Origin: Curvibacter delicatus NBRC 14919
GTDB taxonomy: Bacteria > Pseudomonadota > Gammaproteobacteria > Burkholderiales > Burkholderiaceae_C
Reading direction: 5' to 3'
Length of the DNA stretch: 33,952 nt
NCBI RefSeq assembly: GCF_001592265.1
Contig: NZ_BCWP01000034.1
Span: 1-33,952, forward strand
The notes below the pieces were generated by a model, which did no database searches, was not told the origin of the DNA, and was given only the letters and a program-made list of their open reading frames with translations. The translations under genes were made by a program, and so were the position numbers. Positions within the stretch are counted from its first letter, which is position 1. Every line of letters begins with the position of its first letter. Positions 14,488 through 21,109 of the stretch are shown here, in pieces.

Positions 14488-17058
14488 ATGCGTAAAACGA
14501 AAACCTCTGCCAGACTGCAAACCGACACCTTCCTGCCCTATATGCGTGACGTCATCCGTTGCGAGCAGGCCCTCCAAGAACTCAACCTGATGTGGCGCAT
14601 GATCGAGTCATCCGCCAAGATGAACTGCCCTGAAGAGGCGCGCGCCATTCTGCCGACCATGGCGGCCACGCGCGACGGCTTCAACCGCCTGGAAGAAGAG
14701 CTGGTGACCAGCCTGGTGGGCGAGAAGGTGGCCACCGTGCTGGCCGAGATCGGCACCAAGGCGCAGTACGTGATCGACATCGTGGTGCGCAACCTGTATG
14801 AGCGCACCGCCGACGTCGGCTTTCTGGCCACCGACAACGAACTGTGCGCCTTCGTTGCCGGCCTGAGCGACGATGCGCCGGCCATTCGCCAGCGCCTGCG
14901 CGCCTACCGCGACAAGTACACGGTGTACGACGAGATCATCCTGCTCGATGCCGCCGGCAATGTGCTGGTGCAGATCGACGAGGCTACGCCGCTGGAAGGC
15001 AGCAGCGACCCGCTGCTGGCGCAGACCCTGGCCAGCGACGGCTTCGTGGAGACCTTCCGTGCCAGCAGCCTGCGCCCGTCCAAACGCCAGGCCTTGATCT
15101 ATTCCAAACGCATGCTGCATCCGCAGACCGGTGCGGTGGTCGGTGTGCTCTGTCTGTGTTTCAACTTTGAACAGGAAATGGCGGGCATCTTCTGCTCGCA
15201 CGGCGACCCGGACGGCCGCGCCAACATGCTGCTGCTCGACGGCGACAACCGGGTCATCGAGAGTGCCGACCCGCTCTGGATTCCGGTCGGCGCGCTGGTG
15301 CCGGTCAACCAGAGCGCATCGCCGCAGTTGCTGATGTTCGCCGGGCGCGAGTACCTGGTGCGCACCTTCCGCGCCGAGGGTTACCAGGGTTATATGGGGC
15401 CGGCGGGCTGGCAGGGCCAGGTCATGATTCCGGTTGATGTGGCCTTCACCGGCGCGACCACCAACACGCTGGCCACGCTGGCGCCGGCAGTGCGTGAAGG
15501 TCTGCTGTCACATGCCCAGTCCTTTTCGGCGCCGCTGTACGAAATCATGACCGCAGCGGACACCATCCGGCGCGTGGTCTGGAACGGCCAGGTGATGACG
15601 GCCGGCCGGCGCGGCGAGCTGATGAAGCTGAAAACCATTCTGGACCAGATCAGCGAGACCGGTGCGCGCAGCAATGATCTGTTTTCCAAGTCGATCGGCG
15701 ACCTGTACGAAACGGTGCTGACCTCCAGCCTGCGCGATTCGGAATTCGTCTCGCACCTGCTGGTCGATCTGCTGGACCGCAACCTGTACGAACGCTCGGA
15801 CGACTGTCGCTGGTGGGCACTGACGCCCGAGCTGCGCGCGGCCCTTGCTGCGCCCGAACTGGGCGAGGCGGCGCGCAAGCAGATCAGCGACATCCTGGAC
15901 TACATCAACCGGCTGTACACCGTCTACACGCGGATCTTTGTGTACGACGCGGACGGTTGCATTGTGGCCAGCACCCAGCCCGGGCAGGCTGACAGCAGTG
16001 TGATCGGTCGCCATGTCGATGCGACCACGCTGGCGCGCGTGCAGGCCTTGCGCAGCGAGCAGGACTACCACGTCACACCGTTCGAGCCCTCGGCGCTGTA
16101 TGGTGGCCAGCCGACCTACATCTACCACGCAGCGATCCGCGACCCGCAGAACGAGTCCCGCGTCGTGGGCGGTATCGGCATCGTGTTCGATGCAGCACCG
16201 GAATTCGCGGCCATGCTCAAGGGCGGCCTGGGCGGCCAGGCGGACATGCAGGCCCTGTTTGTGGACCGGACGGGCCGTGTCATCGCCAGCACCGATCCGG
16301 CCCGTCCGGTCGGCAGCGTGCTGGAACTCGATGCGGGCTGGAGTCAGCTGCCCAATGGCCAAAGCGCCTCACGCATCGTGGTGCATGACGGGCAGTACGC
16401 CATCATGGGCTGCACGGTCTCCAGCGGTTACCGCGAGTTCAAGGTGTCGGACGGCTACAGCGAAGACGTGCTGGCCATCGTGTTCAAGTTCCTGGGCGAA
16501 GTGCGGGAGCGCACGGGCGCGGGTGCCAAGGCCCAGGCGATTGTCAAGACCGATCTGCTGGGTCAGGTCGGGCGCGAGTATGCGACCTTCACGATGGACG
16601 GTGCTTTGTTCGCCCTGCCCGCTGAAAACGCGCTCGAAGCGCTGCCGGCGAGCAAGATCACGACGGTCTCCACCGGGGAGCGTCGCGCCTGCGTCGGCCT
16701 GCTGGGTCTGCAGCATGAGGGGCGGGACAGTGCGCCAGTCTGGGTGTTCGACTTCGGCTACCTGATTCGCGGCACGCCGTCTTTCATCGACAAGAGCAGC
16801 CAGGTGATCATCGTGCGCCATGGCGAACAGACCCTGGGTCTGCTGGTGGACGAACTGCACGGCGTACCCGAGTTCAGCGAAGCGCAGATCATGTCCACGC
16901 CGTTTGGCAGCCAGGATGACCGTGCCCTCGTCAAACACTTCATCAAGGCCAATGGCGGGCAAGTGCTGATCCAGGCAGTCGACCCCCTCAGCCTGTTCGC
17001 TGCTTTGATGAAACGGGAGGCGCTGACTGCGCCGCGTGAGTCGGGCGTGCTGCTTTAG
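14488..17058 (+). CDS. Soluble tandem cache-like / CheW fusion protein
   Basis: An 856-residue protein with no signal peptide and no transmembrane helix. Two related sensory blocks, ~residues 85-320 and ~415-650, each start with the same motif: VVRNLYERTADVGFLATDNE at 99-118 and LLDRNLYERSDDCRWWALTP at 428-447. In each block YTVY and a beta-strand with DAxGxxxxx follow about 45 residues later (YTVYDEIILLDAAGNVL, YTVYTRIFVYDADGCIV), typical of cache/PAS-like folds. The C-terminus (~690-845) is a complete CheW domain (REYATFTMDGALFALPAENA; VIIVRHGEQTLGLLVDEL). CheW couples receptors to CheA, so it may plug a cytosolic ligand signal into a chemosensory array. No che gene is nearby. AGGGAT just upstream supports ATG 14488. 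Confidence 0.85.
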   Translation: MRKTKTSARLQTDTFLPYMRDVIRCEQALQELNLMWRMIESSAKMNCPEEARAILPTMAATRDGFNRLEEELVTSLVGEKVATVLAEIGTKAQYVIDIVVRNLYERTADVGFLATDNELCAFVAGLSDDAPAIRQRLRAYRDKYTVYDEIILLDAAGNVLVQIDEATPLEGSSDPLLAQTLASDGFVETFRASSLRPSKRQALIYSKRMLHPQTGAVVGVLCLCFNFEQEMAGIFCSHGDPDGRANMLLLDGDNRVIESADPLWIPVGALVPVNQSASPQLLMFAGREYLVRTFRAEGYQGYMGPAGWQGQVMIPVDVAFTGATTNTLATLAPAVREGLLSHAQSFSAPLYEIMTAADTIRRVVWNGQVMTAGRRGELMKLKTILDQISETGARSNDLFSKSIGDLYETVLTSSLRDSEFVSHLLVDLLDRNLYERSDDCRWWALTPELRAALAAPELGEAARKQISDILDYINRLYTVYTRIFVYDADGCIVASTQPGQADSSVIGRHVDATTLARVQALRSEQDYHVTPFEPSALYGGQPTYIYHAAIRDPQNESRVVGGIGIVFDAAPEFAAMLKGGLGGQADMQALFVDRTGRVIASTDPARPVGSVLELDAGWSQLPNGQSASRIVVHDGQYAIMGCTVSSGYREFKVSDGYSEDVLAIVFKFLGEVRERTGAGAKAQAIVKTDLLGQVGREYATFTMDGALFALPAENALEALPASKITTVSTGERRACVGLLGLQHEGRDSAPVWVFDFGYLIRGTPSFIDKSSQVIIVRHGEQTLGLLVDELHGVPEFSEAQIMSTPFGSQDDRALVKHFIKANGGQVLIQAVDPLSLFAALMKREALTAPRESGVLL

Positions 17059-17717
17059 CCGTGGGGCTGCAAGGCGGGCCGGTATTGCAGGGCCTCGGCC
17101 ACGTGCTCCAAGCTGGTGCATGTGGCGCCAGCCAGATCGGCAATGGTGCGTGCCACCTTGAGGGTTCGGTGCGTTCCGCGCGCCGACCAGCCCAGGCGTG
17201 CGGCGGCGGTATTGAGGAACTTGAGCGCGGTCTCATCCAGGCGGGTGTGGGCATCCAGGTCGGCGCCCGCCAAGGCCTGGTTGGGTTTGCCCTGACGGGC
17301 GAGCGCCCGTTCATGCGCGGCCAGGCAGCGCGCACGCACCTGCTGGGTTGATTCGCCTGCCGGTGTCTGCAGCAGTTCTCCTGCCGGCACGGCCGCGACG
17401 CTCACATGCAGGTCAATGCGGTCCAGAAAGGGGCCGCTCAGACGTCCCTGGTAGCGGGCGATCTGGTCGGGTGTGCACCGGCAGGCGCGTTGTGTGGAGC
17501 CGAGATAGCCGCAGGGGCAGGGGTTCATGGCGGCCACCAATTGAAAGCAAGCGGGAAACTCGGCGCGCCGCGCGGCGCGCGAGATGGTGATGTGACCGGT
17601 TTCCAGCGGTTCGCGCAGCGCTTCCAGGGCGCTGCGCGGGAACTCGGGCAGTTCATCCAGAAACAGCACCCCATGGTGCGCCATGGAGATTTCACCCGGG
17701 CGCGGTGGTGAACCGCC
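17055..17717 (-). pseudogene. comM: comM (YifB Mg-chelatase family), C-terminal fragment
   Basis: The 3' part of comM, a hexameric AAA+ helicase that promotes branch migration during natural transformation. It holds the Walker B segment (GVLFLDELPEF), the AMNPCPCG zinc/arginine-finger region, and the C-terminal Mg-chelatase domain ending LQYRPALQPHG. It lost its 5' part to the Tn7-like insertion at 17718. Its residues 5' of GGSPPRPGE now come from transposon DNA, and any internal start would give a protein without Walker A. Joined to 20229-21109 minus one 5-bp duplication, the gene is 1539 bp (512 residues), in frame. Confidence 0.95.
17713..17717. repeat. Target-site duplication, left copy
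   Basis: CCGCC (GGCGG on the comM strand) directly abuts the TGACAAAAA end. The same five bases follow the other end at 20229-20233. A sixth shared base (A) makes ACCGC an equally valid reading of the duplication. Confidence 0.9.
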
Positions 17718-17753
17718 TGACAAAAATCTAACTCGCTGCGATGATGGTCACAA

Positions 17754-18446
17754 ATGACCACATTACATGCGACTAATGACGACGAGTTCCCAAAAGGGCC
17801 AGTCAGAGCGATCGGCGTCCAAAGCCGAAGCATTACAGGAACGATGCCCGACGGGAATCGCTATGAGTCTTCCTTGGAACGGGATTTCATGTTCTTGCTG
17901 CAGTTCGACACATCTGTAGATGTTTACACACCACAGCCCCTCACGATGAAGTACAGAGGGCTTGATGGCGCTGTGCACAAATACACACCTGACGGATTGA
18001 TCGAGTGGCGAGCTGATCGTCATGTGGACGATCCTCGACCTCTTCTAGTTGAAATTAAATACCGCGAATCATTCCTGGGTGAGTGGCGTCATTGGCGAAA
18101 GCTTGCACGTGCAGCACAAGACTATGCCAATCACCGCGGTTGGAACTTCAGAATCTTCACAGAAAAAGACATTCGAACGCCCATTTTAGACAACGTTCGG
18201 TTCCTCTTGCCCTATCGGAAAAGGGCAAGTACTGCGGAAACAGAGCAATGGGTTCTCGATTTTCTTCATGAATTAGTCGAGAGCACACCTGAAACGCTTA
18301 TCTCGTTGCTCTACAGCGATAAATGGAATCAGGCAGCGCTACTGCCGGTTGTTTGGAAACTGATGGCAGAGCGGAGGATTGGCTTTCACATTGATCAGCC
18401 ACTGTCGATGCTCGCCCCGATTTGGTCTTCTAGGAGTAGTTCATAA
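17754..18446 (+). CDS. tnsA: TnsA-like transposase endonuclease subunit
   Basis: A 230-residue TnsA homologue, the restriction-enzyme-fold subunit that cuts the 5' ends of a Tn7-type element and makes transposition cut-and-paste. Catalytic residues are visible as Glu42 (ESSLERDF), Asp80 (YTPDGLIEW) and Glu100-x-Lys102 (LLVEIKYRE), followed by the C-terminal TnsA domain that contacts TnsC. The ATG at 17754 is 36 bp inside the left end; residues 15-30 still look TnsA-like, so a start at the later Met31 is unlikely. The stop at 18444-18446 is one base from the tnsB start, so they form one transcription unit. The sequence is complete, but its partner ATPase is missing here. Confidence 0.9.
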   Translation: MTTLHATNDDEFPKGPVRAIGVQSRSITGTMPDGNRYESSLERDFMFLLQFDTSVDVYTPQPLTMKYRGLDGAVHKYTPDGLIEWRADRHVDDPRPLLVEIKYRESFLGEWRHWRKLARAAQDYANHRGWNFRIFTEKDIRTPILDNVRFLLPYRKRASTAETEQWVLDFLHELVESTPETLISLLYSDKWNQAALLPVVWKLMAERRIGFHIDQPLSMLAPIWSSRSSS

Positions 18447-18447
18447 C

Positions 18448-19920
18448 ATGAGTCGATTGATACCGGGTCAGGCCGTTATATGGCAAGACCAAAAGTGGAT
18501 ACTGCTAGACATTCCGTCGATTGACCAGGCGCTTCTGCGTGATCCGACGACAGGCAAAGTGCAGTTGATCGCCTCAGATCAGATTCGAAATGGAAACCCT
18601 CAGTCCGGCCGCAATGGATTGATGGATATCGACGATGAAGACTGGAAGGAGGCATGGAAGCGGTTTGAAGCGCTTCGCCCCTTGCTAGAAAAAGGTAAGC
18701 GTGATCGTACGTACGCCGAAGTGGATGAAGTTGCACGGCAATTTGGAAGAGACAGGGCAACAATCTACCGATGGATATCGAAATGGAATACGACGAGAAC
18801 CGTCTCCAGTTTGATCCGAAATGGCCGCAGCGACTTGGGCAAGTCGCGATTGCCAGACGAGGTGGAGCGGATCATGAGCCACCAAGTAGAGGTCTTCTAC
18901 CTCACCAAAGAACGCCCCACGGTAGTTGAACTGTGGGAGCAAATTACCCTGGCTTGTCGGGAGCTCAAGATCCCAGGGCCAAATTTATCAACAGTCCGTC
19001 GGCGCGTTGCACGACTTGGTGATCGGACGGTGATGGCCAAGCGCTTTAGTCCAAAGAAAGCGCGCGAGACATTCGAGCCGCAACGAGGCTCATTTCCTGG
19101 GGCAGATGTGCCGCTGGCTGTGTACCAAATTGATCACACACCCATAGACGTAAGCTTGGTCGACGATGTTTATCGGCAACCTATTGGGCGTGCCTATCTG
19201 ACCATTGTGATTGACACCTGCACAAGAATGCTCGCGGGGTTTTGTGTAACGTTTGATCCTCCTGGCGCGTTGGCCACAGGTCTAGCAATGACACACGCCA
19301 TACTGCCCAAATCAGCCTGGCTAGCGGAATATGACTTGGGCGGTGCCTGGGCAATTCATGGGATTCCCGCAAAGATTTATGCAGACAATGCCAAAGAATT
19401 CCGAGGAACCATGTTGGAGCGCGCCAGCAATGAATACGGAATCGTGATAGAGAACCGGCCCAAAGGCCAGCCCAACTATGGCGGCCACGTGGAGCGTCTG
19501 TTTCGGACTTTCATGAAAAGAACCCAGAGCCTTCCCGGGAGCACGTTTTCTAACATAGAGGATCGAGGCGAATATGTGTCTGACGCCCGTGCGGTCATGA
19601 CACTGCGGGAATACACGCGTTGGTTTGCTACGTTCGTGACAAAGGTCTATCACCTAAGGCCCCATAGAGGCATAGGCAGATTGGCACCCGCAACTCTCTA
19701 TGAAAAGTTCATCCGCGGAGATGACACGCTCAAAGGTAGCGTTGAGGCCAATCCGCAATCCACGAGCTGGCAAAACAGGTTGCTGCAGTCCGTCTATGCG
19801 TATATGGCCGTCAAACCGAACGAACTCGATCTGAGTGTGGTTAAGTGCCAAATCCACTTCTTGCAGTTGCTTTCTCAGTGGACTGGGAACGCCATCCGTC
19901 CAGACCGAACCGATTTTTAG
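18448..19920 (+). CDS. tnsB: TnsB/TniA-like DDE transposase, C-terminally truncated
   Basis: The 490-residue reading frame holds an N-terminal helix-turn-helix DNA-binding region (~residues 80-190) and an rve-type catalytic core. Asp229 (QIDHTP), Asp313 (YADNAKEF) and Glu349 (GGHVERLF) give D-D-35-E spacing, so the chemistry residues are intact. Homology to TniA/TnsB runs to about residue 431 (IRGDDTLKGS). The remaining ~59 residues show no trace of the expected Mu-C-terminal beta-barrel and tail that binds TnsC, so the 3' end is probably replaced through a deletion. AGGAG at 18432-18436 precedes ATG 18448. It is shorter than typical TniA (about 560) or TnsB (about 700). Function is probably lost or impaired. 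Confidence 0.9.
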   Translation: MSRLIPGQAVIWQDQKWILLDIPSIDQALLRDPTTGKVQLIASDQIRNGNPQSGRNGLMDIDDEDWKEAWKRFEALRPLLEKGKRDRTYAEVDEVARQFGRDRATIYRWISKWNTTRTVSSLIRNGRSDLGKSRLPDEVERIMSHQVEVFYLTKERPTVVELWEQITLACRELKIPGPNLSTVRRRVARLGDRTVMAKRFSPKKARETFEPQRGSFPGADVPLAVYQIDHTPIDVSLVDDVYRQPIGRAYLTIVIDTCTRMLAGFCVTFDPPGALATGLAMTHAILPKSAWLAEYDLGGAWAIHGIPAKIYADNAKEFRGTMLERASNEYGIVIENRPKGQPNYGGHVERLFRTFMKRTQSLPGSTFSNIEDRGEYVSDARAVMTLREYTRWFATFVTKVYHLRPHRGIGRLAPATLYEKFIRGDDTLKGSVEANPQSTSWQNRLLQSVYAYMAVKPNELDLSVVKCQIHFLQLLSQWTGNAIRPDRTDF

Positions 19921-20190
19921 AAGGGGCAATTGACCTACTTTTACTTTCGCTACTCGATGCTGCAGTGGCTCGGCGAGGGCCTCGTTTGACAGGACATTGG
20001 TGTAATCAGACCGAAGTTGCGAAAGATAGACGAGGATGTCCGGTTCGCTTTGCAAACTTGGTGGATAGCTGAATCTACCTAGCCAATCGAGGCGCCAAGA
20101 ATGGCTGTCAAACTGTAGTTCTTTGATTTGTATGGGCACTTTGCACAACGTGAAAGGGTGGACGTCGCGCGAAATATGCCCTAATTGCAA
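19741..20190 (-). pseudogene. Unidentified right-end reading frame, truncated at deletion junction
   Basis: I do not recognise this frame. It opens from the right end of the transposon toward tnsB (TTG 20190, or GTG 20139 giving VPIQIKELQFDSHSW) and contains protein-like segments such as WRLDWLGRFSYPPS, EPDILVYLSQLRSDYTNVL and LLKIGSVWTDGVPSPL. The frame continues to 19654, but its last ~29 residues are simply antisense to the conserved part of tnsB. The genuine gene therefore seems cut off near 19740, where tnsB homology also ends. Most likely it is the 5' part of a cargo or accessory gene left by an internal deletion. Coding status is uncertain. Confidence 0.45.
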
Positions 20191-20201
20191 ACAATGTGAA
20201 A
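20140..20201 (-). repeat. Repeated motifs near right end, possible TnsB sites
   Basis: On the minus strand, TTTCACATTGTTTGCAA (20201-20185) and TTTCACGTTGTGCAAA (20155-20140) are similar and lie about 45 bp apart. A related CACATTACATGCGACTA occurs near the left end (17759-17775), with both sharing CACATT...TGC..., in the same orientation relative to the transposon ends. Multiple TnsB-binding repeats at asymmetric ends are typical of Tn7. The assignment is inferential. Confidence 0.45.
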
Positions 20202-20228
20202 CAGTTGCGGTTTGTTCGAGTTTTTACA

Positions 20229-20233
20229 CCGCC
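20229..20233. repeat. Target-site duplication, right copy
   Basis: CCGCC immediately after the TTTTTACA end; identical to 17713-17717. Deleting one copy with the element restores Val-Gly-Gly-Gly-Ser-Pro-Pro in ComM. Confidence 0.9.
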
Positions 20234-21109
20234 ACCGACCAGGGCTACGGCACTGGCGGAATGGTGCGGGCTGCGGGTCGGGCGCTGGCCCCAGCGCGCC
20301 AGCGAAAACTGCCCGCCCAGACTGGCGATGGCGGCGCTTTGCAGGGCTTGCGCGGTGGACATGGCGGGCAGCAGGCCGGCAAAACGCTGTGCCAACATCG
20401 ATTTGCCGGCACCCGGCGGGCCGCTGAGCAGCAGGCTGTGGCCGCCGGCGGCGGCAATTTCGAGCGCACGTTTGGCGCCAGCCTGTCCTTTGACGTCGGC
20501 CAGATCAGGCATGTCCAAGCTGGTGCAAGGGGGCGCCGATACGGTGCGTGACCAGCCTTCGCTGCTGTCCTCCGGACCGTCTCGCGTGCCGGGCGGCAGG
20601 AACTGCTGCACCACATCGAGCAGATGACGGGCCCGGTAGACCTGCGCTTCGGGCACCAGAGCCGCCTCTTCGGCACTGCCGGGGGGCAGTACCAGCCGGG
20701 TGACGACCCCGTCCTGGTGCAAGGCGAGCGCCATGGCCAGCGCACCACGCACCGGTCGCAGTTCGCCTGAGAGCGACAACTCGCCGGCGAATTCGTGGCC
20801 GGCGAGCTGGGCACTGTCGATCTGCCCGCTGGCGGCCAGAATGCCCAGGGCGATCGGCAGATCGAAGCGGCCCGAGTCCTTGGGCAGGTCGGCCGGGGCG
20901 AGGTTGACCGTGATGCGCTTGTTGTGGGGGAATTCCAGTCCGGCGTTCTGAATGGCAGAACGCACGCGTTCGCGCGCTTCCTTCACCTCGGTTTCCGCCA
21001 GACCAACCAGCGTGAAGCTGGGCAGGCCATTGGCCAGGTGCACCTCGACGGTGACGCTGGCCGCGTCCAGGCCGAGCAGGGCACGGCTTTGCACCAAAGA
21101 CAGGCTCAT
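20229..21109 (-). pseudogene. comM: comM (YifB Mg-chelatase family), N-terminal fragment
   Basis: The 5' part of comM, starting MSLSLVQSRALLGLDAASV, with the N-terminal Lon-substrate-like/ChlI domain (VNLAPADLPKDSGRFDLPIA) and Walker A GPPGAGKS at residues 230-237. The frame runs through HHSASAVALVGGG and then into transposon DNA, where a 333-residue read-through product ends with non-homologous residues. AAGGGAG 6-12 nt upstream (plus-strand 21115-21121) supports ATG 21109. Walker A and Walker B are now on separate fragments, so ATPase activity must be lost. ComM loss is expected to lower natural transformation with divergent DNA where the host is competent. Confidence 0.95.

Follow-up and report, generated by a model that had tools for sequence, protein, structure and literature searches.

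What interrupts comM in Curvibacter delicatus NBRC 14919, and is the interrupting element a complete transposon? In the stretch of DNA analyzed here (contig NZ_BCWP01000034.1, positions 1 to 33,952; all 33,952 nucleotides are called the window), comM is split by a 2,511-bp Tn7-like element with tnsA and tnsB genes. The initial annotation had presented this element as a two-gene TnsA/TnsB unit from one Tn7-like branch that recognizes comM across bacterial classes. Our analysis indicates that it is very probably the deletion remnant of a larger Tn7-like transposon, which entered comM and then decayed in place, and its TnsB lies outside the branch of comM elements that carry TnsF-type genes.

The insertion in comM and its gene content

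The element occupies positions 17718-20228 with a copy of CCGCC on each side, and the coordinates, ends and repeats given in the initial annotation proved exact. The features at the insertion site are:

17055..17717, minus strand: comM 3' half (Walker B, Mg_chelatase_C part; includes one CCGCC); Pfam Mg_chelatase 4.6e-52, Mg_chelatase_C 2e-27; TIGR00368 positions 281-499
17713..17717: target-site duplication, copy 1, CCGCC; from the sequence
17718..17757, plus strand: left (tnsA-side) transposon end, TGACAAAAATC..., with a TGCGA box at position 20; from end comparison
20189..20228, minus strand: right transposon end, TGTAAAAACTCG..., with a CGCAA box at position 20; from the sequence and end comparison
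20229..20233: target-site duplication, copy 2, CCGCC; from the sequence
20229..21109, minus strand: comM 5' half (ChlI domain, Walker A); Pfam ChlI 2.2e-42, Mg_chelatase 8.8e-34

CCGCC by itself was rejected as evidence of insertion, since the window holds 224 copies on both strands (183 expected). The boundaries are fixed independently of the repeat, because the flanks joined without the element and one repeat restore, as predicted, a comM frame of 512 codons (512 amino acids), and because in genome G024, of the same genus, the identical 20 bases run uninterrupted across the insertion point. In the joined frame Walker A lies at residue 230, the junction at codon 294 and Walker B at residue 308; a site-specific Tn7-like insertion splitting comM between Walker A and Walker B is confirmed, with many elements of the same order found at the same comM spot. 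Since the element's terminal base is identical to the base that follows in the target, the repeat can also be read as six matching bases (ACCGCC), and the phase of the duplication may shift by one base; the CCGCC phase was preferred because the element then has TG...CA ends. Such ends and a 5-bp target duplication, as in Tn7-like transposons, are both present, and the tnsA end of the element faces the comM 3' half. A box of the TGCGA/TGCAA/CGCAA/TTGCG kind, a motif set picked only after the ends had been seen, begins at position 19-20 in 9 of 12 transposon ends.

Between these ends lie the following features:

17754..18446, plus strand: tnsA, 230 amino acids, frame intact; Pfam TnsA N 2.2e-13, C 6.1e-07; 56% to the TnsA of locus L021
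18448..19920, plus strand: tnsB, 3'-truncated, in a 490-amino-acid frame; homology to about codon 430 (nucleotide ~19737), unrelated tail after it
19738..19747: probable junction of an internal deletion, with tnsB on one side and a reversed tnsE-type gene on the other; TnsB homology stops at ~19737 and TnsE homology reaches ~19747
19747..20190, minus strand: 5' fragment of a tnsE-type gene, ~150 codons (matched part ~19747-20130); match to the right-end gene of genome G080

A TnsA endonuclease gene adjoins one for a DDE transposase TnsB, as expected of a Tn7-like element. When compared with PDB sequences, the window TnsB matched a chain named TnsB (7svw, E 9e-37) and the Tn7 TnsB-related 7pik (3.5e-14), and three motif blocks at 227, 311 and 345 are read here as the putative DDE positions. 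Its best NCBIfam match, the IS481 family, was rejected at 73.5 bits against a cut-off of 224. Of the two genes annotated initially, tnsA is complete, whereas tnsB is truncated and the right end of the element is a reversed tnsE-type fragment. The stop-to-stop TnsB frames of the other elements compared are 625-705 amino acids long, apart from those of L021 (430, frameshifted), L128 (543), L074 (560) and three Tn5053-like rows (577-593).

For the reversed fragment, the match is to the N-terminal portion of the G080 right-end gene (36% over 133 columns, E 4e-19), which adjoins the comM 5' half of that genome and carries Pfam TnsE_C (3.8e-12); the G080 protein itself found nothing related among PDB sequences (best E 1.2, unrelated). 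Within the element neither tnsC nor a TniQ/TnsD gene was found, and any cargo is likewise gone. A search of the C. delicatus genome, run without a positive control, returned no TnsC match, and the element is present there in a single copy.

Relatives in comM and their target selectors

The sample comprised 399 genomes of the order, 43 of which (the C. delicatus genome included) gave a TnsB match at E <= 1e-30; since the other 42 were chosen for having TnsB, their comM counts do not measure prevalence. In these 42 genomes comM was full length in 23 (two with one stop codon), present as a half ending or beginning near residue 295 in 16, broken elsewhere in one (G065) and without a match in two. 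Both halves were found in 14 of the 16, G059 had the 5' half only, and G303 had the 3' half plus a second, nearly complete comM copy. The arrangement of the window recurs in 15 of the 16, where tnsA-tnsB adjoin the comM 3' half and tnsA, the closer of the two genes, is directed away from it; G193 and G161 have other frames (~0.7 and 3 kb) in the gap. Where both junctions could be read the duplications were GGCGG (G080, G193), GGTGG (Rubrivivax, L022/L070), GTGGC (G061, G091) and GAGGC (G170). A tnsE-type gene was detected at E <= 0.01 in 10 of 18 right-end stretches, a count in which two of the ten are the query sources and some stretches end at contig ends, and it was also seen in L022 beside tniQ.

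The window has two named TnsB relatives, one in a Burkholderiales metagenome-assembled genome (MAG) and one in a Rubrivivax MAG. The Rubrivivax element (L022/L070) carries TnsABC-TniQ (540 amino acids) with a tnsE-type gene directly after tniQ and shares its comM insertion base with the window element; its orientation is opposite, with tnsA toward the comM 5' half, and the genes adjoining comM are, by eye, in the same order at both loci. The G080 element (L106) resembles the window element in its comM site, duplication (GGCGG), orientation, TnsB (49%) and tnsE-type right-end gene, and differs in being complete (13,374 bp), with tnsC, a 366-amino-acid tniQ and cargo that includes a DruA-type gene. 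This last gene (L106:8794-9987), directly after tniQ and near an AAA protein, is DruA-like by Pfam (2.5e-67) and looks like anti-phage defense.

A first TnsB tree was built from 36 rows after two duplicate loci had been dropped, and placed the window as sister to L021 (100/98) within a set of 13 rows (99/99). A second tree of 30 rows, from which L059, L067, L074 and three Tn5053-like rows were also left out, separated the same 13 rows from the other 17 (98/99). The set consists of 11 comM elements (the window included), L021, which lies by a tldD-like gene, and L065 from G013, a genome in which a comM 5' half bears the right end of an element of this kind. Across the split lie the comM elements with TnsF-type genes, two Acinetobacter baumannii elements and seven without comM in the surrounding stretch; the branch with TnsF-type neighbors, which marks Tn6022/AbaR, does not include the window TnsB. 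Constraining the 17 comM rows tested (11 + 6) to one clade was rejected (approximately unbiased test, p-AU 1.8e-63). The groups for this test were named after the first tree had been seen; L127, whose contig ends at tniQ, was grouped with the TnsF-type rows solely for its tree position, the test omitted L128 (in comM, with L125 as its neighbor in the tree) and L132 (comM interrupted at another point), and the 30-row tree has no row for L059, a distant comM element. The single branch proposed initially is not supported, and the TnsB trees do not bear out a plain 'Tn6022 family' label for the window element. We also observed that L021 and L068/L069 belong to one MAG (G061), which has both the nearest TnsB, by the tldD-like gene, and a TnsF-type element in its comM.

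'TnsF-type' is our own label, assigned by place and size. The A. baumannii loci L023 and L024 have a gene of 480-490 amino acids with many paired cysteines directly after tniQ, and it was so labeled because its size and place fit the TnsF of Faure 2023 (PMC10293859), a protein of 498 amino acids in an operon with a 369-amino-acid TniQ. The L024 gene had no Pfam match. With it as tblastn query, a like gene was found beside tniQ in G061, G385, G217 and G095, and a copy in G170 is cut by a contig end. A profile from six such genes found no other among the fetched loci, and none was present in the 10 relatives of the window's set (L022, L106, L107, L109, L111, L113, L115, L121, L123, L129) by profile search of the stretches read, which cover the whole element for L106 and about 2 to 7 kb beyond tniQ, in some cases plus a right-end stretch, for the others. 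In the window element the selector region is deleted.

In six of these 10 relatives TniQ is 510-542 amino acids long, with a C-terminal extension. Combined in one profile, the six C-terminal parts matched E. coli XerD (1a0p, residues 129-227 of 290) at E 1.3e-6, whereas singly none gave a recombinase match in Pfam, five having no family at all and one an E of 0.13 to an unrelated family. Of the other relatives, L123 matches the extension profile over one third, L109 only at E 0.28, and L106 and L129 gave no match. An AlphaFold model of the L022 TniQ (2 sequences; mean pLDDT, the predicted local distance difference test score, 36.3) was not used. Between the extension and TnsF-type proteins HHalign gave no convincing match (probability 0.3% and 24.5%); the TnsF-type profile did not match XerD by sequence either. 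The results thus show neither that the two selectors are homologous nor that the extension has a recombinase domain at Pfam level, the link to XerD being seen with the combined profile only. We propose that the TniQ extension may act as a further comM selector; G080, the nearest complete comM relative, has a TniQ of 366 amino acids without it, which speaks against the extension as the only selector.

These results allow the tentative suggestion, to which we give somewhat less than even credence, that a second, TnsF-independent lineage of comM-targeting Tn7-like elements exists in this order, with the window element as a decayed member. Several of its members would be aimed by a TniQ fused to a degenerate XerD-like domain, so that comM would have been reached at least twice via separately recruited tyrosine-recombinase relatives. 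The assignment of TnsF labels by place and size, and the empty Pfam scan of the extensions, both weigh on this suggestion. Conversely, the ancestor of the window element might have been a Tn6022/AbaR-type element aimed by TnsF, as the comM spot is the same within 1 bp, the orientation matches that of elements carrying TnsF-type genes, and the tnsE-type gene is reversed at the far end. We consider this unlikely, because the window TnsB lies across the 98/99 split from the rows with TnsF-type genes, the single clade was rejected, and a TnsF-type gene occurs in none of the 10 relatives on the window's side, in the stretches read.

Across 25 genomes of the same genus, comM gave one full-length match in 19 (one of these with an internal TGA), was split in three (G004, G006, G013), had no match in G014, and was in partial or overlapping pieces in G017 and G019. 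In G004 a distant Tn7-like element (L059 on C400, L060 on C333; TnsB 27%, duplication CCCGG) lies in comM 17-18 bp downstream of the usual site, a separate insertion in the same genus. In G006 (L061, L062) the break in comM falls near residue 316, immediately beyond Walker B, and the 3' side of the gene bears three successive tyrosine-recombinase-like genes (one clear Pfam match, two weak) and, by eye, a small HTH (helix-turn-helix)-like gene, resembling a RIT or Tsy element. In G013 (C17; L063, L064, L065) about 94 kb, with a TnsABC-TniQ set inside, separate the comM 5' half from a remnant of the comM 3' end, which we read as a large or rearranged island.

Probable decay of the element in place

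The ancestor would have carried tnsA, tnsB, tnsC, a tniQ-type target selector and, at the far end, a reversed tnsE-type gene, with cargo probably lying between the core genes and the latter. Its selector would have recognized the comM Walker region, TnsC would have relayed the signal, and TnsA-TnsB would have inserted the element in one orientation, making the 5-bp duplication and breaking comM; these targeting steps draw on Tn7 biology and published Tn6022 assays. Later an internal deletion, probably a single event, would have taken out tnsC, tniQ and any intervening DNA, so that about two thirds of tnsB (to codon ~430 of ~630) now meets the reversed tnsE-type gene near its codon 150. The missing tnsC and TniQ are read as a secondary loss because 20 of the 21 relatives' stretches that carry tnsB also have tnsC, the exception, L128, being a stretch that ends at tnsB. 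The remnant should no longer move by itself, and ComM, its function presumably lost, should no longer help to recombine incoming DNA.

Four observations weigh against this reading. Evidence for the deletion comes from a single assembly (contig C34); the nearest TnsB (L021, 59%) adjoins a tldD-like gene (named by eye) and not comM; the tnsE-type identity of the fragment comes from the 36% match over 133 columns only; and the reversed fragment (19747-20190) had no match in Pfam or in a plasmid search. The first of these leaves room for an assembly artifact, the true locus being longer, as the genome is a draft of 108 contigs; this we regard as very improbable, because the locus is in the middle of a contig and retains its two ends and two duplications, and because TnsC found no match in the genome in the search described above. 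A naturally mobile two-gene TnsA-TnsB element, working without TnsC and TniQ, has in its favor two open frames and perfect ends and duplication, but was rejected as scarcely credible, since TnsB lacks the C-terminal part that nearer relatives have, a tnsE-type fragment is fused to tnsB, the genome holds only one copy, and tnsC accompanies tnsB in all but one of the relatives' stretches, the one that ends at tnsB. Read as a deletion remnant, the window element suggests that such a transposon can decay in place, leaving comM broken.

Comparison with AbaR/Tn6022 and other systems

Insertion at this comM site, recognition of comM across classes and decay in place are all of kinds already described. 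Tn6022 is reported to enter comM through TnsF and TniQ, E. coli comM included, and to need 10 bp within the Walker B codons; its tnsE lies on the opposite strand, and one TniQ-TnsF fusion, lacking the catalytic part, is described, such fusions being drawn as a step in selector evolution (PMC10293859, which also cites a role of ComM in recombination of incoming DNA). The cross-class recognition suggested initially was already published, for Tn6022 TnsF. Homologues of TnsE are almost universal in comM-targeting elements, according to a review (PMC11406308), and internal deletion forms of Tn6022 (Tn6022 deltas) have been reported (PMC7253598). A TnsF-less comM lineage was not found described in a literature search whose coverage was without most subscription journals and all bioRxiv preprints, nor did it return a paper joining comM, Tn7-like elements and Burkholderiales; PMC8649781 does not contain the whole word comM, and a Cupriavidus paper was discarded as a false hit to 'pers. 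comm.' The same few bases of comM are struck repeatedly, by TnsF elements and Tsy (PMC10293859) and, according to the review, by an RNA-guided I-B1 CRISPR-associated transposon (PMC11406308), and a comM set without recognizable TnsF permits a direct test of whether a selector is captured by fusion to TniQ or as a separate protein.

The window insertion is at the AbaR site, as first suggested: in the one A. baumannii junction compared (L141; intact site in L140) the island starts after GGGGGCGGT, and the insertion points (GGGGGCGGT^ in A. baumannii and GGTGGCGG^T in the window) are 1 bp apart. This junction agrees with the duplication ACCGC, named in the initial annotation and given for AbaR in PMC6496155 and PMC3691203, and in three A. 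baumannii records the comM match stops at position 841. The window element thus resembles Tn6022/AbaR in being Tn7-like, in its comM site, in its 5-bp duplication and in having a reversed tnsE-type gene, here a fragment. It differs in that the TnsB of the A. baumannii plasmid element L024, labeled Tn6022-like by its gene order, is ~35% identical and falls across the split in the tree, in that the window's set is without a TnsF-type gene in the stretches read, and in that no cargo remains. Tn7 enters beyond glmS by TnsD. With Tn7 the window element shares a heteromeric TnsA + TnsB transposase, a 5-bp duplication and tnsE, but its site is inside comM and its TnsB is distant (PDB 7pik, above). 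The Tsy tyrosine-recombinase transposon splits comM too (Faure 2023, PMC10293859), and differs in being without Tn7 components and in using another class of enzyme.

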